DNA from: Dermatophagoides farinae | Taxonomy: Eukaryota; Arthropoda; Arachnida; Sarcoptiformes; Pyroglyphidae | DNA length: 64,000 nucleotides | Reading direction: 5' to 3' | Assembly (NCBI RefSeq): GCF_024713945.1 | Contig: NC_134677.1 | Coordinates: forward strand, 5,459,001-5,523,000 | Shown here: piece by piece, positions 27,890-64,000 of the stretch | Numbering within the stretch: the first letter of the stretch is position 1 | How the letters are laid out: every line of letters begins with the position of its first letter | Translations under genes and position numbers: made by a program | Notes under the pieces: model-generated | Told to the model about the DNA's origin: nothing | Seen by the model: only the letters and a program-made list of their open reading frames with translations | The model's database searches: none

Positions 27890-27902
27890 GCCGGTCACCG
27901 GC
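27890..27902. promoter_or_regulatory. GC-rich 13-bp perfect palindrome
   Basis: GCCGGT-C-ACCGGC is a perfect inverted repeat around one central base, in otherwise AT-rich DNA. A dimeric transcription-factor site is possible, but no specific factor is assigned. Confidence 0.3.
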
Positions 27903-28536: not shown

Positions 28537-29186
28537 ATGACACACAGAATTACGGCGTATGTAAAAATCCATTGAAGCTGTCGCCGGTTAGTTTTGGTCG
28601 TTTACATTACCAGTGCCTGTTGCGCATTTTGTTTGTAATGGGAAAAAATTTTTCCACAATCACAAACTAATTTTGCCACTCCCCTGATCCTTGATCAACA
28701 TCATCACCATTGGAATTGAAGCCTCTCCTCTATTTGATAGTTTCTGTGCTGAATCCAAAAAATGACATGCTTTGTTCGTCTGGTATATGACTATGGCTAT
28801 TGATTATTTGGTAGCATGGTACAATATTATACTGTAGCTGTTGATCTTCCATTAACCATCTTAAACTAATTTGAGTTCGTGTATGTTCATTATGTGGTGG
28901 TGGTGCTCCAAAAAAAAAAAAAAAAATTCAACATGCAACCAGAAGTAGAGAAAATTTTTTCGGTTGCATTTATCGTATGTGTGCTCAAATGACGACGATG
29001 GCATTTTTAGTTCTAGGGGGTGGATTAAATGAATGGTTGATGGTTGTCTGAATTAACATCACTATTACTAGAGCGACCACCACCACAATCAACGAACAAC
29101 CACCCATGTCATGTTACAGTTAACTAACCAGAACTTTTAGCTTTCATTTTTTTAAGCAACGATGAATATCTACAAGCACATGTGTC

Positions 29187-29205
29187 TGTGTGTGTGTGTG
29201 TGTGT
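29187..29205. repeat. TG dinucleotide microsatellite
   Basis: A TG run that, read on the minus strand, supplies the His-Thr tail of an open frame at 29144..29428. Confidence 0.9.
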
Positions 29206-31602: not shown

Positions 31603-31625
31603 TAGTAGTAGTAGTAGTAGTAGTA
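31603..31625. repeat. TAG trinucleotide microsatellite
   Basis: About 7.5 uninterrupted copies of TAG. Confidence 0.9.
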
Positions 31626-31698
31626 TAAGTAATATTTTTTTAGACTTTCTTCATAAAATTGAAAATTCTTTCATCGAAAGCAAGAAAAAAGTGCTTGC

Positions 31699-31921
31699 CT
31701 ATAAGCCGGTTGAATTCGGGCCAAATTTCGTTTCGATATCGGTTCCACCTTGTGGCAATATATGTGCCTAAAAAGGAACGACAATAATCAACAGACATGG
31801 TTGTTTGTATTTTTCGTTTTGAAATTCTGCGATCTATATAGATATATTAAGATATAAATACCATCCAAACATGATCACAAAGCGGAAAACATTCGATATT
31901 ATGTCCGAGATTATAATCGTT
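31699..31921 (-). CDS. Orphan 3' coding exons on the minus strand, unknown
   Basis: Two short exons with good splice signals. One is 31921..31862 (NDYNLGHNIECFPLCDHVWM), with acceptor TTTTTTAG and donor GTATTT. The other is 31767..31699 (AHILPQGGTDIETKFG, then PNSTGL and a stop), with acceptor TTCCTTTTTAG. Both exons are phase 0 and the joined reading looks like a conserved C-terminus. Just upstream, 32010..31926, another minus-strand frame reads LSDTRPQLVEGDQILGQTIL. It may belong to the same protein but would need a small intron or a one-base correction to join. No family is recognised. The region is GC-richer than its surroundings. An unresolved alternative is that plus-strand frames here are the coding ones. 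Confidence 0.35.
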
Positions 31922-32073
31922 CTAAAAAAGGTCAATATTGTTTGTCCAAGTATTTGGTCCCCTTCAACCAGCTGTGGTCGAGTATCGCTTAAACATCTTT
32001 ACATTTATTTTTAAAAAATAAGAAAAAATTAAAAATGAGAAATAACATTCATGTTTTTATTTAACTACAAAAG

Positions 32074-33020
32074 ATGGCGCAATGTTTGATGAACTGGTAT
32101 CCAATGGTAACAAGATTTTCAGGTATGTGAATTTTGAATTGTTCATTCATTCAAGAGAACAATAGATTCGAAAACAATGCATAACAAACAAGCAAACAAA
32201 CCTAATGTCTTCCTGGTTTCTAGTTCATCATATTTTATTCGATTAATATTATCATAAATTATACTGAGTACTTTCATCCCTAAGGTGAAGACAAAACGAA
32301 TAACCTTCATGTCTGATGGATGATGACAATCAATCCTCATTGTTAACTCGGAATTTTTTCCTAGTCAATATTCATGGACAAATCGAAAGCAGTTCGTTCA
32401 TAGGCCATGATTATGAAAATGTTTATTGCAAATGCTTATTTCGTTATGGACCTGATTGGGCGTTGGTCAACAATACCAATTCAACATCATCTGATAAACG
32501 TAACAACAATAAAGATATAGTATTTATATCACAAATGGCTAGCCGAAGGCCAGATCAACCAGTGGAACTACCATTGTACGTATGGAATCTACCAATTGAA
32601 GCTACTTTCAAAAGTACAAACGTATTTGGATGGCCACAAATAATTGGTAAAAATTTTGTTTGATATCAAAAATCAAGAATCTAATTTTTTTTCCATTTCA
32701 CTTTTTTAAAAGTTAGCGTTTATGGTATGGATAATCTTGGCAATGATGTCATTCGTGGTTATGGATGGACACATTTACCTATACGACCTGGTGAACATCG
32801 GCTACAAATACGTTTGTTTACCCCTCAATCTTCAACGCTGTTAGCAAGGATAGCCAATTGGTTTGTCGAATCACGTCGACCAGAGTTTATTGACACACGA
32901 TTGGCAGCTGGACATGAAGGTAGACAATTGGTGACAATCGAAAATCAAGGAGGTGAAGTGACCATCCTATTGAATGTTCTTTTCAAGGATTTCAAAAAGT
33001 ATGGATTCATTTCGAGATAA
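32074..33020 (+). CDS. B9D1: B9 domain-containing protein 1 (transition zone)
   Basis: B9D1 is a transition-zone (MKS complex) protein that gates entry to the cilium. The B9 domain is clear: HGQIESSSF, YVWNLPIEATFKSTNVFGWPQII, VSVYGMDNLGNDVIRGYGW, WFVESRRPEF and LLNVLFKDFKKYGF all match B9D1 over MKS1 or B9D2. The certain coding parts are about 32365..32646 and 32713..33020. The start has two options that happen to give the same length, 212 residues. Model A uses a first exon 32074..32122 (MAQCLMNWYPMVTRFS) with a strong CAG|GTATGTG donor and the TTTTTTCCTAG acceptor at 32364. Model B starts at the ATG at 32316 and reads through that acceptor as NFFLV. Poly(A) signal at 33056. Confidence 0.93.
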
Positions 33021-39600: not shown

Positions 39601-42600
39601 AAATACACCGCTACTTTGGTTAATGATGATGACAATTAGTTTCGATCCCCTACAAACTGTATTATTAAATTTCATAATGTCCTTAATCGAGATATAACTG
39701 TATTCAAATGCGAACTGAATTGGAAAAATTAATTAGCATAAAAATTTAAAATTACAAAAATCTCATCTTATATTCTATTTTGGGGGTTTTTCGGACACAA
39801 CTTGTTTCAATTCAGTTCAACTAAATGAAGCATTATTTTCTTTTGTCAACTCTTAATCTTGATGGCAAAATTGGTCAACGATTTTTCTTAACTGTGTTAA
39901 CATCACCATCGTAATGACCGGTAATCGTCATCATCATTATAATGAAAGCTACAGTCGCTATAAGTAATGGTCAACGAAATAAAATAAAAAAAATAATGCT
40001 AGTAAAACTTGCTTTAGCCAAAAAAAAATAGGATATCTTAGAAAAAACGGTGATGTCAATTAATAACAAAAACATGCAGTTGTTTTGTTTGACAAAATTC
40101 GTTTGTTTGACTCATAGATAGCTAGATAGATAAAATAGAGACAATTCAAAAGACGATTGTTTTTTTTGATATGTTGATTGAATAAACTTGGATTCTAACT
40201 CAAATTCCATCGAGTGTGACGACGAAAATAGATGTAATCTTTACATTGCATAGCAAAAAAAAAAAAAAAAAAAATATGAATGACAACACCTTTTTCAAAC
40301 ATGAAAATCCTGTCTATTTATTATTGAATTTATTCAGTTGTATCATTTGAACAAAATTGAAAAAATTAATATGAATTGAAAATTTTAAAAAAATACTACT
40401 AATCGATTGTTAGAACTTAACGATTTGATATCACAAACAAGAGGATGACATTGAATGAAAAAAATCATTAAGAAAATCATAAATCATTAAGAAAACATGT
40501 AACAATTAAAAATGATTGAAAAAACCAAGCGAGTGTGTGAATCCTACTACGATGATAGCATTGATGAAATTGACAATAAAAATGAATGAAATTGATTAAT
40601 TGCTGACTGATTTTAATCTCTTACCTAACACAAATATATAGGGCACAAGCACATCAAAAATAATACTTACAATAAGTAATGGGGCAACAAAGTTACCAAT
40701 GATCAATGCCGAAGGTATTCATCATCAAAAACCATTATGGCCCAATATACGATTAGTCGATGGTCAACGTGTGGAACAAGGACGGCTACAATTAAAATAT
40801 AAAGGCCATTGGCATTCAGTTTGTACAAATTCCCGTAATTGGACACGAAACGATGTTGAAGTTGTATGTCATCAACTTGGATTTACTGGTGGTCATTGGT
40901 TTCGATGGTTTAAGCGTAATAATGATAGTCGACAATTTATGTTAGAAAATCCTGGATGCCATGGTAATGAACCGACCGTCCAAGATTGCCAAAATTGGTC
41001 GCAAAGACGTATCGGCAGTGGTGTTTGTGATTTTCACCAAGACATTGGCATCAGGTATTTTCTGTCATTTAATCAAAATATTGATTAATTGTTTTTCATT
41101 TTTGACAGCTGTGATAATAACCAAGATTCTCGAAATCATTGGCGTGGTATTGAATTCATAAATTCTGACTCGCGTGTAACATCGATTATGTCAAACAAAA
41201 TGGATTCACGTAGATCCAATTCGGCCATCGAACATGTAATCATTGAATATGCAGGCCAACAATCAGATGGGAAATTACTGCCAGCATTATCATCCATCGG
41301 CAGTGTTCCGCCACATATCAATCATCTTGCCATTTATCGTTCAGCATATACAGCATTAAATATTACGGATCCAATCAATGGATTTGAGATCATGAATTCA
41401 AAATTCATAGAAAATCGTGCCTATGGTGTTTATGTTAATACTTCAACTGGTCGAGTTCATTTATCGAGTGTCGAAATTGAAGACAATGGAGCCGATGGTG
41501 TTCGTTTTGTTCATTTCGATAAAACAGACTATTCATCAGATAATTTCTGTGAAACACCAAATCTAGGAACCAGCCAAGTGTTTCCGATCAAATACACGTA
41601 TCGACAATCAGCTTCAAAAGCACCTACAGAAGAATGTTGCCAAGAGTTCTATTCCAAAGATTGGGAAGGTCAACGGATAACGGTTCATTTTCCATTACTA
41701 ATGAGTGGTGTTGAAGATTATGGCGCATTAAATGAATATTTAGTACAACCATATATACCACATGTTGGCCGTGAAGGATCCATTTATATTATTGATGGTC
41801 ATTCTGGACGGATTATCGCCGATTTTTTTATCCGCAATAATACAAAAATACAAAGTGTTTCATCAATCATTGGAAATGGTCCATTACGAATTTGTTATCG
41901 TCCAGCACATTATCGCCGAGTATTGTTCACCATACAGGTTGTTGTCGATTATGGTAGAGAATATGATGTTACCGTATCAAATAGTCGTATTGTGGCCAAC
42001 AATGGTCGTGGATTATGGTTTCAAGATCTACGCAGTGGAGCCGTTGTGAATCGTACATTAATTTCCAATCATGATTATGTGGCCGGTTTGAATATAGACC
42101 GTGGTGTTGGCACAATAATTGTTAATAATAGTATCATTAGCAATAATATTGCTGATGGTGTCAACATTACGAACGGTGGTGGATATCTTCATATTGATAG
42201 AACCGAAATCGTTAACAATACAGGCCGTGGAATTGCCGTATGGTTTAATGAATCCATTAATCTTGGAGCATTCAATTATAGCTCACATGTTACCAGATGT
42301 TCCGTGTCTAATAATCAGATTGGCCTTTTGATTTTTAGTGGTTGTCATTTTTCATCAACTTTATGGCATCAAGGTGCATATTGGAATATTAGTCTTAATG
42401 ACTTTTTTGATCAACGCGAACAAGGCCTACTATATCATTCATGCATTCCAAGACCCAGAATATTGAAAATGCAATTGAAACCATTGGTGACCAATATATC
42501 CATCGGTCATAATCGTTTCTTATCAAACGAATTACATGCAATACATGTGGCACCCTTATTTTTCACTAAATTGAACATTGCCCATAACGAATTTAGTGGA

Positions 42601-45600
42601 CATAAAAAAGCAGTCCTATATATAAATTCTCAGGATCATTTTTGTGTACAACAATTTGTTGAAGATGCCGAACGTTTTCCATTTTCTTTCTTCAATGGCA
42701 ATGCAAACAATAACGATGGTGGACATACATTGATGAATCAACGAAGTTTAGCACTAGATTTATGGCCAACTGTCGTTCGCATAAGAAATAATAATTTTCA
42801 CAATAATCGTGGCTATTATGTTGCCAGCATCGGTTTATTAGAACCAGAATCATCAATTAACGTGAATTTTAGTTCATTATCTCAAAAAATATTGTTCACT
42901 CGAAACATTCTACATGATAATATTATCCGTGAACCATTTGAAAATCTAAATTCACGTTCACGTGTTGCAGCGGTTCTATGTGTCACTTCAAGTAATGTTC
43001 TCATATGGCGAAATGAATTCATTAATCCAAGTTCCAAGTATGAATTAGGAGTTCACTTAGGCGTTCAATATCGACTTGTGAATGCTTCGCTCAACTATTG
43101 GGGAACATCAAGTTCATCTATCTCGATGCGTATGAATTTTGGTGAATACCACGCTGATAAACATCTTGATTCAGCTGCAGAAGTTTATGAGAGGATTTTC
43201 GATCGAAAAAATCGCTACAACTTGGCTCAGGTTGAATTTCTTCCATATATATTGATACCGAATGCATTGGAATCGGATCGTAGTGCATTGTCGTTGATCA
43301 ATGATCGTGAAAAAATTTTGCAATTTTTTCATGGAAATCCAACTGGTGAAATCGGTGGTCAAGTAAAAGGCCAAGTTAATTTACGATCAGGAAAATATTT
43401 TGTCAAACATGATATTTACATTAGTCCCGAAGGCGAATTGGTTTTGAATCCGGGGACCGTGTTACACTTTGATCAATCTGTTGGAATATTCGTTCAAGGG
43501 AAATTTAAAGCAAAAGGACACAAAAAGTCAGACATCAAATTTTTGTTGGCCTCACACAAATCAAGCAATTATCGTTCGAAAAGAAATGTAACACTTCCGA
43601 TTGAGGTGGACAGTGTCATCAATTCAACAATGGCAAAATTTAACAATCGAAGTATAGCTGCGTTAGACCAAAAATCCCCTGTGTCATTCAAATTAAAACA
43701 GACATCTTATTCTAGCCAAAATATAAGACTATCGAATGGTACTGAAGGTCTGTTGGAAGTGAAAATCGGTAACGATTGGGGCACGGTTTGTGGCTATAAT
43801 TTTGATATTGAAGATGCTTCTGTGGCTTGTCACCAATTGGGACTAGTTCTTAATGAACGGGATTGGCGTCTTGAAAAATCGGAATTCTGGAATTCGAAAA
43901 ATTCTCGTATCATTTTGTTGACCAATGTTCAATGTACACATCTCGATACTGATTTGACTAAATGTAAAGCTGAACGAATGAGTAACAATGATTTTGAAGG
44001 TGGTTGGTGTCCAAAAGGTGAAGTAGGCATACGATGTTTTCCAGAAGCTTGGGCTGGAATTCGTTTCGGTATGCTCACACAGGAAGTAATTCTCGAACAT
44101 ATTACGGTGGAAAAAGCTGGTCTTATTGATTACCGTACCAGAAAATTCGGACCGGCGCTACAATTTGATTTCAATCGATTTGCTATTAGAGATTCAATTA
44201 TAACATCAAATATTGATTCTGGAGTTGGCATTTTGTGGAATGATGTGATCAGTGAACCTAATGATGATCGATTATTAACGATTATCGACACAAAAATAAT
44301 GGGAAATCTAAATCATGGTATTGTGACCAGTACACAGGGAATTCGAATCGAAAATTGTTTAATTGCCGATAATAAAGTTTCCGGATTTCATTATGAGCCC
44401 AATTTTAGCCGTGAAAAACAAGAAGAATTAGCGTCATGGATTGTGAAGCAACCAATCCATAATAGAAAAACATCGGTTTTCATAATCATACCCGGTGAAA
44501 CGGCCTCAGATCAATCAATATATCTGGGTGATATTGGTCGACAAGTTTATGTTTATGTGCCACGACGACCGACACCGATATCGAAACCTTTCCATCTATT
44601 GATACGAACCGATCCCGGTAAACGTATCGGTGTGATGGCCATAAGTCCAATATTTTTGACAAGATCATCGGAATCATTAAGACTTTATTCGCCATTGATA
44701 GATAGTATACATGCTTCAAAAATGATGTGGGATATACGTCGCAATCTTACCACATTTCCATTCATATATCCAGGCTATCGTCTCATGTTAGAATATTCTA
44801 CTGGGGAATTACCTTACGGTGGCATTCTATTGTTGTTCACACCAAAACAATATCTTCGAAATATACCGGGTGAGCCCAGTTTTGTCGAAAAAAGTCTTCA
44901 AGAACAACGTGAAATGAATACAATGATATTAGTAAATAATGAATTCATTGAAAATGGAAAAGGAATTTCAAGTGCACATTGTTCAATGAACATTGATTTG
45001 AATGGAAACTATTGTAAACGATATGGAAATGAAACGATAATTGTAAGAAACAATTTAATAACGAAAAGCAAAGGAGCCGGGTTGTTTGTCAATTCATTTG
45101 CCTATTCATCAATGATACCATATTCATTATTGGTGAATATGATTGAATTCAATGAAATGCCACAACAAGAATATGACATTACATATGCTTCATCTGTAAT
45201 TGCCGAAATCAATTATACATTGATTGAGAATCGTTTTGTCGAAAATGCCGAATATGGCTCTATCGTTTTATATGACCATTCTTTATATGCAAACAGTGAT
45301 ATGCAACAAGTTACGGTTCAATCGATGCCTGGTTTTGTTTTATCTAATGCAATCGGCGCCAACTATCCATCCAATACTAATCTTTTCCATTGGAATATTC
45401 ACCACTGTACACTAGAAGGTAATAAAAACGGTGGAGTAGATCTCAAACTACCATATACGTGGCTATATAATGAAAATTTTACGCATACTGTTGTGGTTGA
45501 AGATTCAAACTTTTTGAAAAATCAAAATTTCGAATTTGTCATTGGTGGTCATTATGCAAGAGTGAATATTACACGGAATAAATTTCTAGATAATCAATGC

Positions 45601-48600
45601 AAAATTGGTCTTGTATCGATTCTTGGAATGGAAAAATTAACACGAGTTGTTCAAAATGAAATGAACGATAATTATGTTCAACGATATGTGATTGAAATGA
45701 ACATGGAAAGTCATGCAGATAAATTTGGTACTGTTACGGCCATGATAAATCGAAATAAGATTCGAAATAATCGTTTTTCCGGTGCAGCTATACAATTTAC
45801 GAATGCAGAAGAAATGAGCAATGCATATACGCCAGAAACATATGCCATTGCAATTCGTGGACTACAACAAGTTAATGTTACGCGTAATATTCTAACCAAT
45901 CGAAATCTTCAATTCGAATTATTGGCCGGTGTTAAAGCTGGATCAATACATAATGAATTAAATGCAAGAGAAAATTTCTGGGGAATTGGTTTTGACCCGC
46001 AAACAATCCGGGAACGGATATTCGACTTTGATGATTGGAATAGTTTTTCGACAACGATATTCTCACCATGGTTGTCTAATGATCATAGTGATGCTTCTTT
46101 AGTTCATGATCAATCTACAATAGATGCTTTAAGCCAATCATCATTAATACCACAGTTATTAGGTGGCCGATTAAATCAATCATTAGTGTTACATGCACGT
46201 GACCGTCCTTATGTGGTACAGACAGATTTAACAATTATGCCGGACACCACTTTAACTATAAGACCAGGTGTCGAAATTGAATTCTATCCATCCGTTGGAA
46301 TATTAGTTCTTGGAGATTTGAACGCCATAGGGATTGAAAACAAACCGATTTTATTTCGACCGATAACACGAAATTCAAACCATTCGAATATTTTACAACC
46401 GAAAATGATGAATTCATGGACAGAACGATCGAAAAGTTATGGCCGAAAACGACAGATTCCAATGACAGAACAATTAGTGTATAGTAAAAGTGATCATGGT
46501 GGTGTACGACTTTGTCTAACGGAAACCTGTGATCCTGAAACCGAAATAAAAGCAGAAGAGAAGATGAAACATCAGCTTTCATGGTTTGCCGATTCAGGTT
46601 ATCCGAAATTGGCAAGCAATGACCGGAGACGTCATGGATTCATGGAAATCTACAACCTAACAACATTACAATGGACACCTATTTGTGATCCCAGATTCAC
46701 TGAACGTGATGCACAAGTTGTATGTCGACAATTGGGTTTTTCCACACTGAATGTATTTGTACGGCGTGCTTCTCGATCAGATATGGATCCAACATTGATA
46801 ACAAGAGTCTCTGAATGGCCTGAATCATTGGAATGTAAAGGATCCGAATCAAATTTAGCCGAGTGTGATTTACGTACATTTTCTAAAGATAGCTATGATC
46901 GAAAATCAACCTTATTCGAAAATGCACCACTTTATCATTCTAAACTTTTATCAACGAATTTTTATCGTAAAACTCATCAAAATCAAATTGTTGATAATCA
47001 AACTCAAGAACTGCTTTTCTACATGAATGATGATTGGCGATCACTGGAGGAACGATCATTAATTCAAAGTACGGCATGTCGTCACGATGGTGATGAATTT
47101 GTCTATATATTTTGTGGTGAAGATAATAACAGATTTAACAAGGATGATAGTCAATTGTTTGAACATTGGGGAGGCATACGATTTGCTTTGCCTGAATTTG
47201 AAGAAGACGATTCTAAGAAATTTTTGGCTAATAATAATAACAATAATCGAAAACAATTTCAGAAAAGTGCTATGCATTATGTCAATATTATTGGTGCTGG
47301 TGTATTGCATGGAGAAAAAAACGCGGCAGTACAAATGATACAACGTTCAATACCGTTGGAGTTTGTGACAATACAAAACAGTGCCTATCATGCTGTAGAA
47401 ACTTTAGCACCACCAGAATCTCTAAAAATACATCGTCTTCGAGCTGAGAATAATTTGGGTGCCGGACTAAATCTATTGTTATCGGGCACCTCAACATCGG
47501 AAAGTTCACGCGTTCCTTATGAACCGATTACAGATGGATCAGTATTTACCGTACCATATAACGCATTTTCAATGGTAGATATTTGTGATGCAAGAAAACA
47601 ATTGCGTGTTAAAGAAAAAATAATTGTTTATTATAAATATGATAATCGTCCAGTTGATTGTGTCAAAATATTTACCAGCGCTAATCCATTGAAAAACATT
47701 GGTATAAGATTTTTACAATTAAATCTATGGAGTAAATTTACTGAAACGGCCGGTAAAGTGAATACATTTGAAGAGGATTATATTCAAGGCAAGAAATTTG
47801 CCTATCAAACCGAAGATATATTTCACAATAAAATCCATGAGCTCATTGATGAAACAACCGATTCATATGTGGATGCATCATTGATCACTTCTATGTCTGA
47901 TTCGATCATGATTTGGGATGGCGATATTTTCAACGAAACAACTAGACATTTGATTGGTGAAGTTTACAGTGATTCTACACAAGAATTTTTAAAACGCACA
48001 TCGATAAATTCACTATGGCCAAAAACATTATCTAGACAACGTCGTTATACTACATCAACACGACGGCCACCATTAACAACGAATGGTCCAGAATCATCCG
48101 CAAAGAACATACTTTATAAATCCACTGGTTTTTCAATGAGTCTACAGCTACATGTATCAGGCGCATCTGGTCGTTATGGTTTCATAGCCGAAGTGACAAC
48201 ATTACCCAGTGCTTATCATGATGAACGAGATATACAGCATAACATTACATTTTCAGATATCAATGATAATAATGCCGGTGCATTATTGTATCAGAGCGTT
48301 GGTGAAAGTGTGCCACAATTAGCTCTGTTGAATAATATGTTTAAACGAAATTGCCGAAATCTATGGGGCAATTTTAGCACATGTGAAGGACAGACCATCG
48401 ATCTTAAGATACAGAATTCTCCGCATCTATACTTTCAAAATAATTTGATAACTGATAATCGTGCAGGTGGCCTAAAAATATCTGCTACTTCATTTACTGC
48501 TGTTTCGGCACTCAACGCACATCTGATCAACAATTTATTTGCCGATAATTATCAGAAAGAAGCCCTTTATTTTGAAGGTGCTAATAGTTATCAGAAAGTT

Positions 48601-50844
48601 GATGTGGATAGAAATTATTTTAGCCGAAATCGATCACCACATCGATCAAACATGGTGTTCGGACGTGCAATCGTCGAGTTTCATGAGAATGTAATAATTA
48701 ATAATTATGGTGACAATCAATTGTTTATGGCCGGATTTGCTCATGCACAATCATCATCAAAACTTCAACGATGTACAAAGAATTTTTTCTACAATAATCA
48801 TGCCAAAAATGAACGTGGTGAACAGAGTACAATCATTGTTAGCACCATTGGTCAGATTTATAGTGACAATTATTTAGTAAATCCAGATAATGATTTTGAA
48901 TTATCTACACGAAATCGAACAATCATAAATGCAGCAACGTATTCACTCAAACAAAATCTGATCGAACCAACATCATTTGCCGCTGTATTGGCATCAGCAA
49001 TTGTACAAGCTCCTTATAATTGGTGGGGTTTCAATGAAACCAGTGCTATTGAAGCTCGTATTCGTGATTCACGTGATTCATTTTATCTCATACCGGTACA
49101 ATTTGAACCGTTCTATTCTGGAAATTGGTCAGTACTAAGTGGTTCATGCTATGGTGGTTATCAGAAAATTGCCGACACTTGTTTTGTTTATGTCGGTGGT
49201 CGTATGACCTATGATCTAGCACGGAAATTCTGTGGTAAAGATAATTCATCGATGCCATTCATACGAGCATCAAATCAAGAAGAATTGATGCATTATATTT
49301 ATCTACAACAGCCATTGTTTAATCGTCGTCGTCATCCAGTATGGGTTCAATCTTTTGATGTACCCATTGGTTCATGTTCAGTACTAATCGATGGCCATGT
49401 CCGTGTACATGATTGTAATGATGAGCTGCCATTTTTATGCGAACGAGATCCAGAGATTGGAATCAGTACGGCAACATTAGATTATTGGTATCAAGAACCA
49501 TTAGGAATGGCTGTTATTGGCATATCTTTCTTAACAATGCTTCTTACGATGGCTTGTATTTGTTGTTGGATTTGTAAATCTCGTCATAGACATTTGGAGA
49601 AATTAGAACGCCGTAATTCAATTCGTGCTTCAATAAGATCAAGTCGATCGTTGGCTTCTATGAGTGCATTGAATGATAGTCAATATTTCACGAATAGAAA
49701 ATTATTGTCCGAATCGAATCCAAATGTAAATGGATCCATTAATGGTTCAATCAATCCATCATATCGACCTATTCCTTTGCATAGTGCTAGTGGCCATCAG
49801 CGGCAATCACAATCGATGCAACAGGATCATTATGGGGAATCATTGTCATCAACATTTCCCATATATACAAGCGATCATAATGAACGTCTTGTATTGGCAC
49901 AAAAACGTTATGATGATGCCTTCAAATATGGCCAAAACTCCCGAACATCGAATACGGATATAATGAGATCAGCCAATTTACAGCAACCTACGTTCGACAT
50001 GGTATATGATAATCGTGCATTTAAACAGGGACCAACTGATCAATCAACACCAATGATGTCACCACTATCATTCTCATCGAGAGAAGAACATCATAATCCT
50101 ACATTACGAACATGGACACCAGAAACGAATTCCACATTGGATTTCAAAGTTAAACCTGCATTAGATCCACAAGAATTATCACAATATACGGAATCATCTG
50201 AAGATCTACATAAACCACCACCATCTACATCATCATCGACTGCATCAGATTTACCATCGCCAACATCCGGACAATTATCAAATAGACCACGTTTTTATCA
50301 GCCTAGATTGCAACAATCCACCATGATGAAATCTCAACCAATACATCCTCCTCCACCACCACCAATTCGTCGTTTAATACAATCAAGAGATCAGAGAAAC
50401 GAAAATAGACAACGTCGTAGTATGGATCCGACAATGTTCTTACATCATGAAGATGAAGAGCCATCCATTTCACATGAAAATAAAGACATGCCTATGGAAA
50501 CAACATTCGATGGTGAACTATTAACATTCGATCATCATCAGAATGAGATTCATAATAGAAAAGAATTTAAAAAACCTATTTATCATCAAACAGATTTAGA
50601 TGGTGTGAATACAAATTATCATATGGGAGGTAGTCAGCCGTCATTGACGTATGGTTCATATGCACCATCAACCATCGAAAGTGAATCGAATAATCCTTAT
50701 CTAGAAACATCATTAGATAATGATTCATTTCATGGTAACAATTTTCCAGCCATTGCCAACTCTAAACACAATATATCATCTTCAACGAATGCTGCCACCA
50801 AAGCAAGATTATATGCCAGTCAACCATTAGAAACTTCTATGTAA
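36628..50844 (+). CDS. bark: Bark beetle / Anakonda tricellular junction protein
   Basis: Exons 36628..37713, 40642..41054 and 41109..50844 encode about 3,744 residues. Bark organises tricellular septate junctions in fly epithelia. Three modules repeat a PGV-F-P-VGI-V-G strand block (residues about 330-362, 1230-1270, 2190-2230). Each is followed by a scavenger-receptor Cys-rich domain (about 395-500, 1372-1478, 2344-2502) and parallel beta-helix repeats. A C-type lectin domain (about 3178-3281, CYGGYQK to LPFLCERD), one membrane helix (about 3300-3325) and a 420-residue tail follow. The tail has a proline run and the C-terminal class I PDZ-ligand pattern ETSM. RSKR (about 1323) and RQRR (about 2809) are possible furin sites. 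Exon 3 spans 9.7 kb. The start is uncertain: the hydrophobic signal segment lies at about residues 204-230, and a nearer ATG at 37135 or an upstream exon is possible. AATAAA at 51036. Confidence 0.93.
38815..38833. repeat. ATT trinucleotide microsatellite
   Basis: Six copies inside bark intron 1. Confidence 0.85.
40255..40274. repeat. Poly-A run, 20 bases
   Basis: The longest homopolymer noticed in the window, inside bark intron 1. Confidence 0.9.
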
Positions 50845-51345
50845 ACTTTTCATTATGATGAATTACTGCACATTAATCAATTTAATTTTTTTTACTAACA
50901 ATTTTTTTGATGTTATAATCATTTTTATTTTATTAATTAATTATTATTTTTGATAAAGAATTTTTTACAATTTGCCATTTTTGATCAAATGTATAAAGAA
51001 TAATGTAAATTTTTTTTGTTAATATTAATTCATCAAATAAATAAATTATTATTTAAATTTTTCAAATGTGATTGTTCAAACAAATTAATGAATATATATC
51101 TTCAGGTATGACCGGAAACAAAACAATAAAAAATAGTGTAAAATCTACCTTAAATTAGTTTCATCATTTATGAATGCCCCGTATTGAAGCAACAAGTCAT
51201 GCGCAATTCATACATTCCACGTTCTGTTTTTCATATGATGATCTGTGTTTAGATGTTTATGTAAATTAATAATCAATAAATAAATTTTTCATGTCCGATT
51301 TTGAATTATATTCCATTGAAAGATTTTATATTTAGTTTTATTAAA
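50845..51345. other. bark 3' UTR and SLY1 promoter region
   Basis: An AT-rich 501-bp spacer between tandem genes, with the bark poly(A) signal at 51036 and nothing else recognisable. Confidence 0.6.
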
Positions 51346-54300
51346 ATGATTTCCTCGATTGCATCATCATCATCATCATCAAATCTTAATGCTTTAGCAT
51401 CTTCAAGTGGAAATTTTTCCATCACTGGAAATGAATCTGAATCAACGTTAAATATTCGTGAGAAACAAAAAGGTATCCTTTTTTATTGTTTGTTTTTAGC
51501 ATAAACATTTATTTTGTCATGATTTTAGATGCATTGAAAAAAATGCTCAATCTTAATACACCCATACCTATGAATACGACGGCCAATGAACCCGTTTGGA
51601 AGCTATTCATCTATGATCGTTATGGACAGGATATTGTTTCACCGCTTATGAACATTAAAGAATTACGGGAATTCGGTGTCACACTTCATATGTTTGTGAA
51701 ATAATGATAATCTTTAATATCCCTTTTAACTATATTTTTTTTATAAGAATAGGCAATTACACAGTGATCGTGAACCTATTCCTGATGTACCGGCTGTCTA
51801 TTTCGTTATGCCAAACGATGAAAACATTATGCGTATTTGTCAGGATTTTCGTAATCATCTGTATGATCATTACCATCTGAATTTCATATCGCCAATTTCT
51901 CGTGCTAAACTCGAAGAATTAGCATCGGCTGCGTTACAAGCCAATTGTGTGACTAACATTTCTAAAATCTATGATCAATATCTCAATTTTATTTCATTGG
52001 AAGATGATGTATTCATATTGAGGCATTCGGATAAGGATAAGATTTCATTCTATGCAATAAATCGTCCGGCAAATCAAGAACCAGAAATAGAATTTATTAT
52101 GGATCATATTGTTGATAGTCTTTTCTCATTTTTTGTAACATTGGGTGTTGTTCCAATCATACGAACACCGAAAGGAAATGCAGCTGAAATGGTGGGAGAA
52201 AAATTGGACAAAAGGATTCGTGAAAATTTGCGCGATACGAAAAATACTGTGTTCAATGGTTCAGATATTCAACGTTTAGGAGTTTCATCCTTGTCCTTGA
52301 TGTTCACAAGACCTTTGTTGATCATTCTTGATCGTTCATTTGATATGGCTACTCCTCTATTGCATTCTTGGACCTATCAATCACTCTTACATGATGTATT
52401 GGATTTTAAATTGAATCAGGTTTTCATTAAAGAATCAAATTCATCGGATAATAATGATAGTCAAAAAGTGATGAAAAAATCAAAAATGACCGCCTATGAT
52501 TTAAGCAATCAAGATAAATTCTGGAATCAACACAAAGGTAGTCCATTTCCACAGGTAGCTGAATCAATACAAGAAAAATTAGATTCATATCGTTCATCCG
52601 AAGAAGAAGTGAAACGGCTAAAATCCGAAATGGGTCTCGATGGCAACATACCAGATGCAGCCATTTCATTGTTGACTGATAACACACATAAATTGAATAG
52701 TGCTATAAATACATTACCAAATCTGTTGGAAACTAAACGAATAATCGATCTACATACAACGGTGGCCAGTGCAATATTAGAACATATTAAAAATCGAAAA
52801 CTAGACGTTTTTTTCGAAATAGAAGAAAAAATTATCGCATCGAAAGGACATTTGGATCAGAAATCTGCTTTAACGCCGTTAGAATTAATACGTGATCCGA
52901 ATGCAGGAACGCCTGAAGATAAAATGCGTTTATTCATCATATATTATCTTCATCATAATTTTAGCGATGCTGAATATGAACAGTATGTTGCCGAATTACG
53001 TAATGTCGGTTGTGATCTATCGCCAATCGAATACGTGAAACGATGTAAATTCCTTGCAAATCCAGCTGCATCATCATCAGTATCGTCATCAAATCAAAAT
53101 GTTGATAGTATATTTCAAAGCCTTGGTGGTGGTACTAAAACTGTAAATATGTTCTCGAAACTCATGTCTCAAGGATCACAATTTGTCATGGAAGGCGTGA
53201 AAAATTTGGTAGTCAAAAAACATACCCTACCCATTACACGTGTTACAGATGCATTAATGGAAGCCAAATCGACGCCCGAAACTGATGAATTCCGATATTT
53301 TGATCCTAAAGTATTGGCTAAAGCACAGAATCTTTATGGTGAAGATGGTGGAACATTTGGATCTTCATCATCACCATCATCAAAAAATCCATTTCAAGAT
53401 GTAAGTTACCATGATAGATGATAGATGGCACTATCTTTACTCTCTTTAATATTTTTTAGCGCAATAATTTAAAAAAAATACAAGCATCATAATGGATTAG
53501 ATTAGATTAGATTAGATATATAATATCAAATGCTTAGTTCATTGAAAATGAATGGAAAAGTTGATGATCCGGGTGATGAAATTTTATGTATTAGTTTACT
53601 TCACTTAAACTCGATTCATCTTTAGCAGATATTTCAAGAACAAAAAATAATTTTTTTTTGGTACCATGTACATGTTGCAATAAGCTAAGATTTTATGTGT
53701 TCATTCTGAATGGTCACTGTTTGTGTGTATGTGGAAAGGCCTGAAGCTAAGTTTGCCAACATTATACTGTAGTTAACATTCTTTTTAAAAAAAAAGTTAG
53801 TGAGTTGGTTTCTTCATTCAATTGGTTTGCCTTGTAATTTATGATAAATTGGACCTCCATGAAGGATCATTTTTTTTTTTGGTTGTTTGGTTAGCTTCAA
53901 AGTTTTTCGAATATTCGATGATGATGTTAAATTGTGTTTGTGATCTTGGTCTAGACCTGAGAATTTTTTCCCCATTATTATTATTGTTTTTGAATGTTTA
54001 TAAACCAGAAAAAAACATCATCAATTTTTGAACAAAGCAACAACAATGGCAAATTGGTTTTTTCTTTTTGATATTACTGACCAATCTCGAAAAGTCATGC
54101 TCCTAAATCTCACACGTACACGAACATAGACATTTGATGATTTTTTTGGACAATGGCCTTCAAAAACATTCGATTCAATAGTAGAAATAGAAAGAGAGAA
54201 AGAATCGAATCGAGAGAAAAAATCTAAATGGTCAAAATGTCATAATAATAATCTTGTCATCATCGTTTTTTGTTGTTGTTGATGGTCTCATGTCATTAGC

Positions 54301-55859
54301 TTCACATTTTTCTTGTGAATATAAATAAATGAATGAATGAAGATCCGTGATGAGGATGATGATCATAGTTGAAATTTTACTGTCTTTATTATCATTATTA
54401 TTTGTATTTGACTTGACTTATTTCCATTCATTTATTCATTCATAGAAGATTGGTTGTCGAATCAAATGAGAGAGAGAGAGAAAGAGATTCATCTTTCATG
54501 ATTATGACATGATCTTTTTTTACGCTCGCACACCTTTGTTTGTATTTGAATGCTATGTATCTGAATTCTGCAAGTAATTGTTCATGTGTGCATATGATCA
54601 ACATTCCATATCTTATCTCTTCTTCTTTATGAATGTTATTATTGTGCTGTTTTTTTTTCGTTTCTTTTTTAGTTTTACTAATAATTAAAATGGAGATAAT
54701 ATAAGAATTATATTCTTCTAAGAAATATTTTTTTTTTTTTGTAGTTTTGTTATCTAAAATTTTTTGATCTTTTTTCTTGTTTTTTTTGTTGTCGTTGTTG
54801 TTGTTGTTGTTGTTGTTGTTTGGATTGTATACTTTGTTGATTTGTTTGTTTTAAACGATGAATTTTTATTTTAATCAATTATTGCTAGATGTAATTATGT
54901 ACAATTAATCCTTAATCTTTAAAAAAAAAATTAAGAATCCCTAATCTGTGACATAGTAAAGATGATGATGGGCTACTTATCAATTTATCTCTCTCTTTCT
55001 CTCTGTTAATTATTATCATCATTATTGAAATGTATGAATGAATGAATAAAACGATAATGATGATGATGATGATGATTATACATGAGTAAATGAAGACATT
55101 CAATTCGTCTTTATTTTTTTTCTCGCTCCTGCTGTGTTTGTGAAAATTTATTTCATCATCATCATTATTATGAACACATCAACCAATGATGATGATGACA
55201 ACCGAATTACGCCCGAAATTAGCAAGGTATGGTAGCTTTCTTTTTTTTTAAAAAAAAGGAAAGAGATAAAACTTTTCTAAAATCACCAAGTTGTTATTAT
55301 TATCGTTATTGGAATTGAATATAAAATGAACATGAAATGAAAATTTTTTTTTTTATTCTTTGATGATGATGATTTTACCGAGAAAAAAGAACTGATTTTG
55401 ATCCGTTTGTTCTCCACCCGATTGCCAAATTTTTTATGACCATTTAAAATGAATGAATTTAATAGTTTGTAGTAGTTTACTTTATTTTGATTTAGGATAA
55501 AATAATCGTTAATTTTTGTTATTTTTCTTTTGATCATATCTGATACAAATAGCATCTTTATTCCGATATTGTCGCTGAATAACTTGTCCTTTACAAATTT
55601 TTTATTTTTCAAATTTTTCAGGCTATCGTATTTGTTGTAGGCGGTGGTAATTATATTGAATACCAAAATTTGGTCGATTATTGTAAAGTAAGTAATGGCA
55701 TCCATATGGATTTTTCTTTTTTTATCAATGTTTTTGTTTTATTTTGTTCAGACAAAATCAAAATCATCACCAAAACATATCATCTATGGTTCAACGGAAA
55801 TATCAAATGCGCAACGATTTTTATCACAATTGAAAAAATTGACCAATGAAATGATCTAA
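51346..55859 (+). CDS. Slh: SLY1 / SCFD1, Sec1/Munc18 vesicle-fusion protein
   Basis: Exons 51346..51472, 51529..51691, 51753..53400, 55622..55687 and 55752..55859 encode 703 residues, against about 640 in human SCFD1. SLY1 binds syntaxin-5 and related SNAREs for ER-Golgi and intra-Golgi fusion. Family blocks are EPVWKLFIYDRYGQDIVSPL, REPIPDVPAVYFVMP, QDFRNHLYDHYHLNFISPIS, DLATP-type RSFDMATPLLHSW, KMRLFIIYYLHH, and the end AIVFVVGGGNYIEYQNLVDY. The N-terminus adds a Ser-rich extension of about 30 residues. Exon 2 ends at a non-consensus donor AT|GTTTGT, chosen because it keeps TLHMQLHSDRE in register with the family. Intron 4 is 2.2 kb, far longer than the other introns. Poly(A) signal at 55966. 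Confidence 0.95.
53495..53514. repeat. GATTA pentanucleotide tandem repeat, 4 copies
   Basis: Four perfect GATTA units in SLY1 intron 4. TAATC/GATTA is also the core of Bicoid/Otd-type homeodomain sites, but slippage is the simpler reading. Confidence 0.85.
54786..54821. repeat. TTG trinucleotide microsatellite
   Basis: About 12 units with one TCG interruption, in SLY1 intron 4. Confidence 0.85.
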
Positions 55860-56374
55860 ATTTTTTTTTTCGTTCATCTTTGTGAATTTTTTTTTTATAT
55901 GGTCAAATTTAAAAGTTTTTATATTTATTATTATCAAATATTATTATTCATATTTACATATTTCAAATAAAAAACAAAACAAAACAAAAAATTATTTTCT
56001 ATTGTTCCATGAAATCTGTCAGAAAAATCCCGGACATATAAACGCCACACACCATGACGAAAAAAATGTGTGTGTGTAGAATACATAAGGATTGACTCGA
56101 ATAGCCGATAAAATATGTAAATCTATCCTCTATGTAGTTGGCATTTTAAGATGGAATTTTTTTTTCGCAACAACTAAACGAAACGAAATCCAAGCAAGCA
56201 ACTCGATTACATTTTCGAAGATGTAAATATTTTTTTAGTTTGTACTTTCTTCTAAAGTTTTAGCCTAGTTAACAAGGTTGATTCTTTTTTCTTTTTTTTG
56301 GTTAGTTTGCTTGTTGATTTATGTTTTTTTTTGTTTGCCCGTTTGTGTGTGTGTCCAAGACTAAATCATCGTAA

Positions 56375-56429
56375 GATGATGATGATGATGATGATCACAT
56401 TGGTCATGATGATGATGATGATGATGATA
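56375..56429. repeat. Paired GAT trinucleotide microsatellites
   Basis: Two GAT runs, 56375..56395 and 56406..56429, separated by about 10 bases. Confidence 0.85.
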
Positions 56430-59097
56430 GTTACACAGCAGGAACTTATTCATTTATCATCTAACTGATATATGATGAAAGAAATTGGAAAGAGAGAAAT
56501 TCTTTGATGTAGAGCCTATCATCGCCATTCATTCAAATTCACTGATACATACACAAACCGACTACGTGTGTGTGCGTCGTTACCATGAAACGTCAAATGG
56601 ATTCGACGACCACCTGGTAAAATATCTCCAACCTATGATGCTGATCATCATCATCATCATGTATTTACATCGATTTTTCAATCATTATAATCTCTCCTGC
56701 CGTGTAAGTGAATTTATTCAAATTTACATGTGCATGCATTTGGTCTATAAGTCAAATAAACAAACACATAGATAGGTATACAATTTATATACTGGAATGA
56801 TTATCATCATGTCACCACCTTGCTTGTTTGTTTGGTGATGGTGATCAGGATAATCTCTTATTGGATCAATTTTTATCAAAATCATTGTTTGAAAATCTTT
56901 TATTTTTTTGATGATTTAAATTGACAAGAATTTACATACGCTTACCACCATGGCTGAGATATAAAGACTTTTTTCTGTTCAGTATAAGTTTATCAGTATT
57001 CTACTGATTCCACTGTTTTGGTGTATTCATATCCTGTGAAGACCATCCATCTATTACATGAGATCCTTATGATGTTCATCATTTCTATTATTGTTGCGTG
57101 TCTAATTAATTTTCCTTCATTGATATTAATGTTCGTATTATTGAAAAAAAGAATTTGCCAAGTTGTTGTTTTAATTAGCATTAAACATGCGTGTCTAAAA
57201 GTTTTTTTTTTATTATCATATTGTATTGAAGGCTAAAACCCAACAAAAAAAAACGTATTCGGTGATGGCAAAAAGATGAAGATGTGAAAGCCATGTTGGT
57301 AGAATGGCAAATGAAGATATCTTCAATCATTCATCGTGTTTGTGAAGGTAAGGTGATGGCTAGTTTGGTGGTCTTACTCTTGGCATGTAGAATGCTATTT
57401 TGATGATGATGACAAGACACGACCGTCATGATGATGATAATGAACATTGTTGTGTGTCAGTTAGAAATTTTATCATATTACTACTTTTGCCACTATTGCT
57501 GATTTTTTATATTTGAAACAAATTTTTGTTCATTCCATAAGGTCGTGAGGTCACTTTTTTTCAATTTTGTTCATTGTTTGTCAATGAATTGATTGAAATT
57601 CTCAATTGTGATTAGTGCTGTGAAATGAAAATCATTTGCCCCTTTTTTTCATATACAAGCCGACGTTCAATGAACATTTTTATATTTTTGTTTGTTTTTT
57701 TCGATAATGTTAATGTTATCATTATCTACCGTCGATCTATTGATTGGTTCTCGTTTGTTTTTTTTTTCGTGGTTGACAACCGTTGTTCTAGTTGTCATGG
57801 ACCACATGGACCTGGGATTGTATGTTTTTTTTCTTTTTGTTCTTGGAAAAGAATTTCAGTTTGATTGATTAAAACTCGTTCGCGGGAAATCCTTATCAAA
57901 TATTTTAATCTTTATTCAATATAATCAGTACCATTGTTTGAAATGAATAAATTTTCTCTGCTGCTGTTCTTAATCAAGTTGTTATTGATTGATCAGCTAA
58001 ACTCACTTGTAGCAGGTCCAGGTGTGTTGCTCATTCCTTCAGGTTGATAAACTTTGGTGTAATGAGAAAAAAACTTGTTGAAGCTCTTTGATCAGAAATC
58101 AGACAGCACGACGACAAATCATGGCCATTGGCTGTTTTTTTTCTGGGGATGTTCGACTATCGATTGTGAAAACGAGTTAATTGAAAGTCCTTGAACAGTT
58201 TTGATGTGCTTTATCTCTTCTATCGATACTTTCAATTCTGTACATTTCTATGAAAAGAAAAATCCGACTTTATTTATAATATCAATTCATTAATATTCTT
58301 TCAAGTTCAATCAACAAAAAAAAATATTAGAATCAATAAAAAATACTTAATTTTTGATTTCGAAAACACCGACTAAATTATCACCGATGGTGATTTTTGT
58401 GGTTCAACAACAAAAATCGTGTATTACGAAAATTGCACGCGTTCATCATCATCATAATCATCAATATGACATCGATATCCTTGTTCATGAATTGAAAAGA
58501 ATGAATTGGATTCTATTATATATGTTTGAAATTCCTTTTTTGTACGCAATTTTAGCGAACAAATTTCTTTTTTACCTTAAATTGTCCTCGTTCTCATGCA
58601 TGATGATGGTCATTTTTCACAATGACATAGAAAGTTAAAAAAAGCCGAACTTGAAAAAAAATTCTTGTAATATCGATTTTCTTGGTAATGGTATTTTAAT
58701 GATTCCGAGATAGATAGAAGGAAAGAGAGGACGAAAATGCCGAACGGTCCACGTTTTTTGTCGATTCATTCTACCATCGACTGTGTATTCAAAGAATTTT
58801 TTTTATCATTTGTTCATACCTTGAACAAATAATAATTATACTACATGAAAAACACACACACACACAAAGTGACCAAACATTATCATTATCTCCTCCTCCT
58901 CCTCTTATGACACTTTGATTCATAAACATTCTTCAATTTTGCCATTTTCGATATATAATAATTGGAATAGTCAATCTTTTTTTTTTGCTATGGATATTTG
59001 TTTTTTCAAACGATTTGAATTCAATCATATACTATTTATGTGCAGCTGTGTGTGTCAGGAAAGAGAAGAAAAAAAAGTTAATTTAGGTTTTTTAGGA

Positions 59098-59219
59098 CTG
59101 CTGCTGCTGTTGTTGTTGTTGATGATGATGATGATGATGTTGTTCAATTTTTGTTTCGATTTTTTTCAGTAGGTTTTGTTGTTGTTATAAAATCGTTGAT
59201 ACAACAGCAGCAGCAGCAG
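59098..59219. repeat. CTG/TTG and CAG runs forming an inverted repeat
   Basis: CTGCTGCTGCTGTTG at 59098..59112 is perfectly complementary to CAACAGCAGCAGCAG at 59202..59216, with an 89-base loop that includes a GAT run. Transcribed, it could fold as a 15-bp hairpin with triplet-repeat arms. Confidence 0.7.
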
Positions 59220-59261
59220 TAAATAGCCGGATATCCTTTACGTGCAAGAACATCAACAACC

Positions 59262-59297
59262 TTATTATTATTATTATTATTAGCGTTATTATTATTG
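59262..59297. repeat. TTA trinucleotide microsatellite, interrupted
   Basis: TTA repeats with one GCG interruption. Confidence 0.8.
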
Positions 59298-60734
59298 ATG
59301 AAATGGAATGAATTCGTTCATTCTGTTTTCTTCGATGTAAAGAAAAATGTTGAAAAAAATTCGTTTTCATTTTCTCGGGCGAACCGAAAAAAAAACTTGA
59401 CCGAAACTAAAACGAATAAATGAATGAAGTAGCCGCCTTTATGTCACGATTGAATGAAATTTCGTTCATCGTTTTTTTTTATTTGGACCTCGCTTTCAAA
59501 TGATAATTTTTCCCCTCGATTTGATGATGATCATCTCCATCATAATAATTTGCCCCTGTTCATTATGTGTATAGCTATGTTGTTGATTATGTATCTCACT
59601 CAATAAAATACGCTCCGTTGCACACCGAATTTTTTTTTTTTGAAAGCTTGAATGAAATGGAATGAAATCAGTAAATCAAAGTTCCAGAGAAAGAGAGTGA
59701 GATTTTTTTTTGATTGTTTTTGGCCTTTTTATGGTCTGACCTTTGACCAATTTTGAGATTTGAGAAATGATGATCATCGTTATTTTGATGAATATCACGA
59801 ATGTAAAAAATGCCATTGAATCGTGGGACATGATACATTCACAGTAGCTCTATTGGAATAATTTGAAAAAGAAACAAATGAAAAAAGAGAGGAATTCTCG
59901 TTGTTTTCGAGTGCCAAGAAAATTGACGTAACTCAAAAAAAAAAAAAAAAATTCGACTGATGTCAAACTACCATCCTGATGATTGCTAATAGTGAAACAG
60001 TAGTGTAAAGATAAAGCTTCAGATTTCGAGATAAATCTAGTTGTAAAAACCAAACATTAGTTGTGAAAATAACGACCTTTTTATCGGAATCTGAATTCCA
60101 ATCATCGATCGATATATTCTAGCTGTAGTCATCATAAAGTTCTTGATGTATACGGATAAGGTTGCATTCCTTGTCATTTGAAGTTTGAAATCAACAGCAA
60201 AAATTGAAATGAATTGCCTCCCATACAAATACCAAAAGCTATATAAATTTATAGCAATGTTCAAAAGATAATAATGATTAAACGCAATTGAAGGGGGAAA
60301 ATTTTTCAATTTTCGATGTGACCAATGATTATATCAAAAGTAAAAAAAAATCAGAAAAAAACTCCACAATTACATCTTGCTTCTGTTCAAATGATGATTA
60401 CGATGATTTGGTCACACAGAATGTGACTAATTTACCGTGAGAGTGGCCGTATCTTCAATGACAATTTGCTCGCTTGGACATATTATCATCATTAATGATG
60501 ATGATGATAATTTTATCTTTAGGTGAAATTTAACTTTACATTTTGACATTGATCGAAATTTTAGCGCGCCATGGCATGTCATCAGTAATCATCGTTTACA
60601 TTCAATGGCCACTTTGTTTTCTCGTTATTAAAAGCAACAAAAAAAAATACGAAATGAAAAATAAGCAATAATCAAAGTTAATGAAATTATAAAAAAAAAC
60701 AAATTTGATTTTTGTCATTTTATTGCATTTTTAG

Positions 60735-60873
60735 TGTCACATATACACAACCATATACGATTTAATGATGATTCAAATGATCGACATTTGTGTCAGTGAT
60801 TTTAATGGGCCATTGAAATATCCATACACATTGAATGATGCAACAGATGATTTTTTCCATTATCAAAATAATG
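60735..60873 (+). other. Weak candidate coding exon, unknown
   Basis: A TTTTTAG acceptor with a T-rich tract precedes an open 139-base stretch that ends at ATG|GTAAAA. It reads CHIYTTIYDLMMIQMIDICV then SDFNGPLKYPYTLNDATDDF. Composition is more protein-like than its surroundings, but there is no partner exon and no recognised family. Confidence 0.2.
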
Positions 60874-61782
60874 GTAAAATCATTCTCATCATCATAATTA
60901 TAATCATAATAATGATCTTAAATGACGAACAAAATTTTTTTTTGTCATCATCATCATAATCGAACTAAAATGTTGTTAATGATGACTAATCTGGTTACAA
61001 ATAAAATTTGTATGTGAATCTGGCTATTGGTGGCTATTTGATCGATTTAAAGAAAAAATTCTTAATTGACAAAATGAATTAATTGCAAAGAAATATAGGT
61101 AAAGTTGATCTCTCTCTCTCTCCCTCGTTGTGTATACATGTTTCTTTCGTTGTGTTTATGATGCTGTTGATGGTAACAATCTTGGCCCAAACATCAATAT
61201 ATTGCCAAACGAAATGAAACAAGAACATAATAAGCGCAAAAAAAAACTAATCCTGATCATCGGCCATAGCCATGGCGTTGCTGATTATCTTATCTTCTCA
61301 GCCATTAAAGGGGAATTTTTTTTTCATTTTACATTTGTTCATTTTAGGCCACAATCGTACAGCATTTGTTTTTAAGATATTTTTTTCTTGCTTTTTACCT
61401 GAAATGAAATTTTTGGCATTGATGGTGGCGGCGGCAACGTTGACACCACACAAAAAGCAATACCAATCGTCGATACAATAAATGATTTTTTTTTTGGTCA
61501 TTTCAAAATTCATGACATTCTTTCAATCACACTATTTGGCAATATTATTTTTTGTTGGTTTCTTCTTATCTCTTGAACTTATAAATCAATCAATATAGAT
61601 AATATGATGAGGTAAACAGTTTCCGGTACATTTTTGGTTTGTTCGTTGGTCACAAGGTTCAAGGTCTTGGAATACAAGAAATTCCTTTCAGCATTTTTTC
61701 TTGGTTGAAACATTTCAATGAATCTGATATGGACTTTTTTTCATTTAGATTTTTAGCCGAAAAGTCATTCCAAATTTTCGAA

Positions 61783-61799
61783 TGTGTGTGTGTGTGTGT
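61783..61799. repeat. GT dinucleotide microsatellite
   Basis: A simple GT run in the SLY1-dpp interval. Confidence 0.85.
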
Positions 61800-63319
61800 T
61801 AATGCTCTTCATTTGGCAAGAAAAATTATTTAAATCAACGAGAAAAAAAAATTTAAATTCTACCCTTTGTTGGATTTTACCGACCCTCTAATTTGCTGTT
61901 CATTCTCTCCTTCTCTGTGTCAATGTTGTCAATTACCGGCAAAGTTTTTAGAGTTTTTTCAACGACAACCACGATGATGAAAACCTGTAGACGGTGAATT
62001 CAATTCGTCAATGGTAGTTACATTTGTCATTTCATTGATTCGATGATCAACCAAACAACCTGCCGAAAAAAAAACCAAACTCACATACACAAATAAATAA
62101 AAAAAAACGTGTGTGGCTTTCTTCGGTCTTTCTGATACTTGTAATTTGGACCTACTACAACCACAGCAATTGATTAATTTATTTCAGAGTATTTTGATTT
62201 GTTCTACCATTCATTCATTTAAAATTGTTGATGATCATCATAACAGAAAAAATGGACATAATTATTGCTCTGATTGATATTTCGGTCACTAAGAAAAAAA
62301 AATGAGTGAAATTCCTATTCGAATTTTTAGTCTATTCAAAAACTGAGTTGACTTGTGCCGACATATAACTATTCAGGAATGATTGAGTGGTCAGATAATC
62401 ATAGCCTTTTTTGAATTGGAAAAAATTTTTTCGTTTCCGTTTTTAAAAACACAAACACTATACAAAAACATACAAGCATTTCCATAGTTAGTATACTTGA
62501 TTCTCATAAATCAAACAAAAAACCAATTCATATATAAATATATGATGATATAAAGTTTTAATTTTTTTTTAACTCGCTTTTTCTCTCTCTTTCTCTTTAC
62601 GATTCATTTCTAATTACAGCTTGTGACAAAATATATATGTTCATTGATTGTTGTGATTTATTCGAAAATTTTATCGACAATGGTTCGATGTATTGTGATG
62701 GTGATGATAGTAGACGAAGATTTTTTTTTCTTTTTTTTTGTTGTATGTGTGTGAGTTCATGTTTGTGTGATCGGGTGTGTTGGTTTTATGAATCTTGAGA
62801 AAAAAAAATTACAAAAGATAAATAAAGAAAAGAAAAAAAAAATTCATAATAATCAATAATAATTTATGTAAAACAAGGACAATCATCAAAATTAAAAAAT
62901 ATTTATAATAATCAATAATAATCATAATGGTTGCCATTCGAAAAAATATATTTTGAATTATTCTTCATTAACTCGAAAAAATGATGATGATGATGATAAT
63001 GATTCTTCATTGATGAGAATAAGATTATAAATCTTTTTCTTAATCTGTGCATTTTTTTTTAATATGGAATTGATGTATTTATTTCATTGGTTTAGGTGGG
63101 TACGCTTGTGTTTCATGCGTATTTATAATTTAATTAGTAGTGAATTTGTGATTCAAAATGGAGGTTTCGAACAAGAACAATGAGATTTATCATTTTTTTT
63201 CCATTCAAAATTTTATAATCATAATAATACAGAAAATATATCTCAGATCGTCTTATTATGGTATTCAGATTTTTTTCGCCGTTTTTTTTTGCCAACTCAT
63301 ATGGAATTATTATTTTTTT

Positions 63320-64000
63320 CTAACTACAACCACATCCTTCGACAACCATATTTGGATAGTTTTTGAGCACCACTTTTTCTTTATGATCCAGATATAGTAA
63401 CGTCACAGATGATAGATCAGTAGGTATACAACATGGCTCTGGTACGACAGCAGGATTGACCGAATTGATTAGCGATTGTATGATGGCATGATTCGTTTTA
63501 TTCATCTGTTGTGACATCGGATATGAACATTCACCTTTACAATAGAATGCCTGATAACCAGGAGGTGCAACGATCCAATCCATCCAGCCTACATCTTTAA
63601 AATCGAAATACATCTTATATCGGCGACAATATTGACGTCTTCTGGAGCTATTTTTATGATTTTTCTTCTTTGATCGTTGTTGGCCATAATTATTTGATTG
63701 ACCATTTCCCATTTCTCCACTTCCTCCTCTTTTTCGTTCACGTTTAGATCGATTCAATAGCTTTTCCTGACTCAAAAGATAATGTTGGTGCGTTTGTGCA
63801 TCATTTGAAAATGTTATAATCAAAGGCTGTAGCTCATGCCATTCATGATTTTCATCGATTTCTGGCTGTTGTTGATGTTTTTGCTGTTCACTTGTTGCCG
63901 ATTGCACTTGGCCAGAATTAAATACGAACAAATGGGAATTTAATGATTCACGTCGGTTATCAAGATCTTTAATGGTGATCAATAGGCCATAATTTTCCGT
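63320..64000 (-). CDS. dpp: Decapentaplegic (BMP2/4-type TGF-beta ligand), 3' part
   Basis: The last exon is open to the right edge, so the gene's 5' part lies outside. The 226 visible residues start at the end of the prodomain ([20 protein letters not shown], as in fly Dpp NYGLLVEV). Next comes an optimal furin site RSKR followed by further basic residues. A basic, Asn/Gln-rich linker ([15 protein letters not shown]) is probably a heparan-sulfate-binding stretch. The mature cystine-knot domain ([15 protein letters not shown] to VEGCGCS) has all seven cysteines and ends at 63320. [14 protein letters not shown] and [16 protein letters not shown] favour BMP2/4 (dpp) over BMP5-8 (gbb). The secreted ligand patterns axes and appendages through Tkv/Punt-type receptors and Mad. 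It converges with SLY1 across 7.4 kb. Confidence 0.93.

Follow-up and report, generated by a model that had tools for sequence, protein, structure and literature searches.

SLY1 and dpp as convergent neighbors in Dermatophagoides farinae: a possible counterpart of the dpp–Slh neighborhood of Drosophila

Gene identities and arrangement

The window analyzed here, a 64,000-nucleotide stretch of the Dermatophagoides farinae genome, contains at positions 51346..55859 of the plus strand a gene whose complete coding part could be assembled from five exons (51346-51472, 51529-51691, 51753-53400, 55622-55687 and 55752-55859). Joining the exons resulted in a single open frame that translates to a protein of 703 amino acids, with the sole stop codon at its end, and all four introns possess GT..AG ends. 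The intron lengths are 56, 61, 2221 and 64 bp; the third (53401..55621) is about 35-40 times as long as the other three, in agreement with the initial annotation, which had called it unusually long. A Pfam search identified the Sec1 family within exon 3 (1.6e-103). When the same exon was compared with PDB sequences, the best match was ‘Sly1 Protein’ (1mqs, 239 bits) and the ‘Sec1 family domain containing protein 1’ (1y9j) scored 111 bits over 77 residues, whereas the remaining 14 PDB sequences listed (UNC18, VPS45, syntaxin-binding proteins 1-3, s-SEC1 and VPS33) reached at most 54.4 bits. This difference in score places the gene in the SLY1 subfamily, and its predicted product is therefore SLY1 (SCFD1) and no other member of the Sec1/Munc18 group.

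The second gene is read from the minus strand and is represented by its last coding exon (63320..64000), which is open at the window edge and holds the whole mature ligand domain; the window ends inside this gene, with the flank beyond it lying outside. The exon encodes a TGF-beta domain, as recognized by Pfam. Engineered chimeras aside, the PDB sequence with the highest score was BMP2 (172 bits), followed by BMP7 (157), BMP6 (151), GDF5 (128), BMP3 (117) and BMP10 (114 bits), and the mature part of the predicted protein shared 62% identity with BMP2. Ranked by pairwise score only and not by a tree, the ligand resembles BMP2/4 more than it does the BMP5-8 or GDF proteins, and by this similarity we designate the gene dpp (BMP2/4 class).

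SLY1 (plus strand) and dpp (minus strand) are convergent and lie tail to tail. With the gene identities confirmed, the adjacency, the orientation, the coordinates and the spacing of 7.4 kb that had been claimed for the pair all held, the measured distance between the two stop codons being 7460 bp (55860..63319, a feature without strand). This interval contains no recognized gene. None of the 11 ORFs scanned, out of 27 interval ORFs of at least 60 amino acids, reached a curated Pfam cut-off; Rfam returned nothing above threshold in the interval, with one weak match to SCARNA7 (21.5 bits, where 65 are required), and ARAGORN, used with the bacterial code, detected no tRNA in the whole window. To describe the interval as gene-poor is fair as far as these Pfam and Rfam scans reach, though the property is not unique within the window. 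A comparable gap extends from the end of an ORF at 24611 to a B9 gene at 32304, where some of the ORFs were scanned and a mir-1 precursor alone was recognized (30579-30693, plus strand; 58.3 bits against a threshold of 45.6). The latter was the sole Rfam match above threshold in the window. The SLY1–dpp interval has a composition of 30% G+C, and simple repeats account for 7.6% of its length compared with 1.3-6.3% in four control stretches. Three tandem-array rows were recorded within positions 51000 to 64000.

The next gene upstream of SLY1 (40642..50844, plus strand) ends 501 bp from the SLY1 ATG. Its main open frame measures 3251 codons from stop to stop and encodes an SRCR and beta-helix protein, a domain architecture by which we take the gene to be bark beetle/anakonda-like. 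To regard it as a possible further member of a block with SLY1 and dpp would be speculative. In Tetranychus urticae, the anakonda gene carries the identifier tetur04g07130 (PMC9019602). The other features recognized in the window were a CBM_14 chitin-binding exon (665-970), an Ndr protein (8305-9801), an IFT-type WD40/TPR protein on the minus strand that is tentatively WDR35-like (about 10450-15732), a MYST acetyltransferase of the Tip60-like type (16491-18239), a kinase-domain fragment (22494-22733) and the B9 ciliary protein mentioned above (32304-33017). An arthropod source is consistent with the chitin-binding domain and with the bark/anakonda-like protein.

Motif counts in the SLY1–dpp interval

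A total of 18 consensus patterns were counted in SLY1 intron 3, in the SLY1–dpp interval and in a control region (24700-32200), and the counts were compared with those of 100 dinucleotide shuffles of each region. Three patterns were elevated in the interval: Ci/Gli, with three sites observed against 0.36 expected (a count reached in 1 of 100 shuffles), GATA, with 39 against 24.4, and GAGAGAG, with five against 0.14 (no shuffle as high for either of the latter two). By the same comparison, no elevation was found in the interval for the TCF, Mad, SMAD, Su(H), Dorsal and Zelda patterns. In SLY1 intron 3 the raised patterns were GAGAGAG (five observed, 0.08 expected) and GTCTAGAC. The control region was raised for certain patterns too, with two Ci/Gli sites (0.37 expected), three Ets sites (0.76 expected) and one site of a CTCF-like pattern (0.02 expected).

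Further counts were made over the window. The whole window contains 12 Ci/Gli sites, and the sole perfect one, at position 36810, lies outside the interval; the three sites within the interval each carry one mismatch. Sliding windows with three Ci/Gli sites numbered 7 of 114, four over the interval and three over the bark coding region, and because the coding region of bark reaches the same count, we rejected Ci/Gli enrichment as a sign of an enhancer. After masking, GATA was counted 34 times in the interval, 34 times in a control stretch at 1000-8300 and 28 times in the control at 24700-32200. The SMAD-type palindrome GTCTAGAC is present as one copy at 53949, within SLY1 intron 3; it was not significant over the window, at least one copy being found in 13 of 100 shuffles, and it was likewise rejected as a regulatory sign.

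The distribution of GAGA-type dinucleotide runs of at least seven bases was more uneven. Seven of the ten such runs in the window fall within 53401-63319, four of them in SLY1 intron 3, and the 87 same-sized windows tried on its left never contained more than three, in a part of the window of which much is coding. This concentration was spotted post hoc, after the 18 patterns had been examined. The runs could represent regulatory DNA of the GAGA-factor type or merely microsatellites; they are a weak and ambiguous sign, and we left the odds of the competing explanations unchanged. Apart from the GAGA runs, the motif counts are mostly unremarkable and for the most part fail to distinguish the interval from other DNA of the window.

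Comparison with Drosophila and with genomic regulatory blocks

In Drosophila, dpp, Slh and oaf are located within 70 kb, and several enhancers in this region activate the dpp promoter only, according to a 2023 review (PMC10298269, citing Merli et al., 1996). A leg disc enhancer was localized 20-30 kb downstream of dpp in a 2007 paper (PMC1764032). Drosophila melanogaster and the mite share dpp and the SLY1 homologue as close neighbors; the dpp-only enhancers are described for the fly (PMC10298269). The dimensions also differ, with 7.46 kb between the stop codons in the mite and three genes in 70 kb in the fly. Of the fly-like neighborhood that had been proposed for this DNA, the juxtaposition of SLY1 and dpp stood, matching the fly dpp–Slh–oaf linkage with dpp-selective enhancers. 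No OAF family was detected among the 27 of 129 unassigned window ORFs that were scanned with Pfam.

As neighbors, SLY1 and dpp are already known in fruit flies, and the linkage of the putative target and bystander has been seen in two taxa, the fly (PMC10298269) and the present window. Within the literature searched, the coverage of which excluded most subscription papers, no report of dpp–SLY1 linkage outside the fly was found. Viral contigs were scanned with dpp, with SLY1 exon 3 and with a dpp and BMP2 alignment, and they yielded no arthropod relative. One scan of genome contigs returned a single locus (L001), again not an arthropod relative. This locus, at positions 740-1690 of DKPL01000047.1, which is filed under a Bacteroides metagenome-assembled genome (MAG), reads by eye as a vertebrate-like BMP2/4 exon, which the contig joins to bacterial genes (from 2527 on), an assembly chimera or contamination, and it was rejected as an arthropod synteny comparison.

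The locus can also be compared with genomic regulatory blocks that contain bystander genes, as these are characterized in PMC5585340. Both combine a developmental signaling gene with an unrelated housekeeping gene beside it, and in both a stretch poor in genes is accompanied by a bystander whose intron is long. The blocks of PMC5585340 are defined by conserved non-coding elements that act on the target gene, whereas the locus described here is known from its gene layout.

Discussion

To account for this arrangement we propose, tentatively and with a confidence somewhat short of even, that SLY1 and dpp form an ancestral pair that has been kept together in flies and in this mite by dpp regulatory DNA that ignores SLY1. 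The two genes would have been neighbors in a common ancestor and would have been retained as such by descent in both lineages, with SLY1, a housekeeping gene lying 3′ of dpp, as the bystander. Regulatory elements of dpp would reside in the 7.46 kb interval, and possibly in the 2.2 kb intron of SLY1, and would not act on the SLY1 promoter. With elements for dpp in and around the interval, breaks between the two genes would therefore be selected against. SLY1 intron 3 may be named as a candidate site of dpp regulatory DNA, and the earlier idea that putative dpp enhancers in or beyond SLY1 hold the pair together is plausible as a conjecture. The reading of the locus as a regulatory block is favored by the assignment of both genes to the right subfamily, by the dpp-only enhancers (PMC10298269) and the downstream leg disc enhancer (PMC1764032) of the fly and by the presence in SLY1 of a sole long intron.

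A bystander gene within a dpp regulatory landscape appears, by analogy with the fly, to be the best-supported mechanism, and passive retention is its close rival. Under the latter, the linkage would be ancestral and two genes that lie near each other in a compact genome would simply never have been separated, with no regulatory landscape shared between them. Just 7.46 kb separate SLY1 from dpp, its distance to the next upstream gene is 501 bp, and the motif counts offered no clear regulatory signal, all of which suits passive retention and makes it a possibility to be taken seriously, if on the unlikely side. In the Acari, however, gene order decays fast. Little microsynteny is left between the phytoseiid Neoseiulus cucumeris and Tetranychus urticae, for which only two well-recognized blocks were reported, compared with many blocks between two phytoseiids (PMC6902594). 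This loss, together with the dpp-selective enhancers at the fly pair (PMC10298269), makes pure inertia less expected.

Chance is an improbable explanation of the shared linkage. It would require that the two genes became adjacent independently in this lineage and that the match with the fly is a coincidence picked from among many known neighborhoods. One genome was examined, which leaves some room for such an event. The fly has about 14,000 genes, with some eight on each side of a given gene within 70 kb, and rough arithmetic on these approximate counts put a random match for the SLY1–dpp pair at about 0.001 (1 in 1000). Some 12 adjacent pairs of the window could be compared with known neighborhoods, and over all of them the estimate, equally rough, rose to 0.01-0.02, which corresponds to prior odds of roughly 1-2%. 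Coincidence would nevertheless need the same pair to be drawn from thousands of genes, and SLY1 is found 3′ of dpp here, as Slh is in the fly, in cytological region 22F. Since a random match has a probability of about 0.001-0.02 and gene order decays fast in the Acari, the SLY1–dpp linkage, in the two taxa that bear on the question, is more likely to have been inherited than to be coincidental.

A long dpp 3′ UTR, or else an unrecognized lineage-specific transcript, might make up most of the interval in place of regulatory DNA, but this seems very unlikely. AATAAA/ATTAAA signals do occur from 188 to 1139 bp past the dpp stop codon (2.3 kb examined) and 16 of the 27 interval ORFs lie beyond the Pfam scan, but the 11 that were scanned held no Pfam family above cut-off and the interval held no Rfam family above threshold.

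The reading of SLY1 as a bystander in dpp regulatory DNA also has a wider form, in which an arthropod-wide dpp regulatory block would be older than the chelicerate–insect split, with enhancers in the SLY1 intron and the 3′ interval, and would perhaps reach as far as bark/anakonda. We consider this wider form doubtful. If the linkage of SLY1 and dpp fails elsewhere, the arrangement would be a coincidence of little interest. If the two genes are linked across arthropods, the stretch at 53401-63319 would be a short and directly testable piece of a compact genome, and the position of the dpp 3′ enhancers may far predate the imaginal discs, the setting in which it was worked out in the fly.
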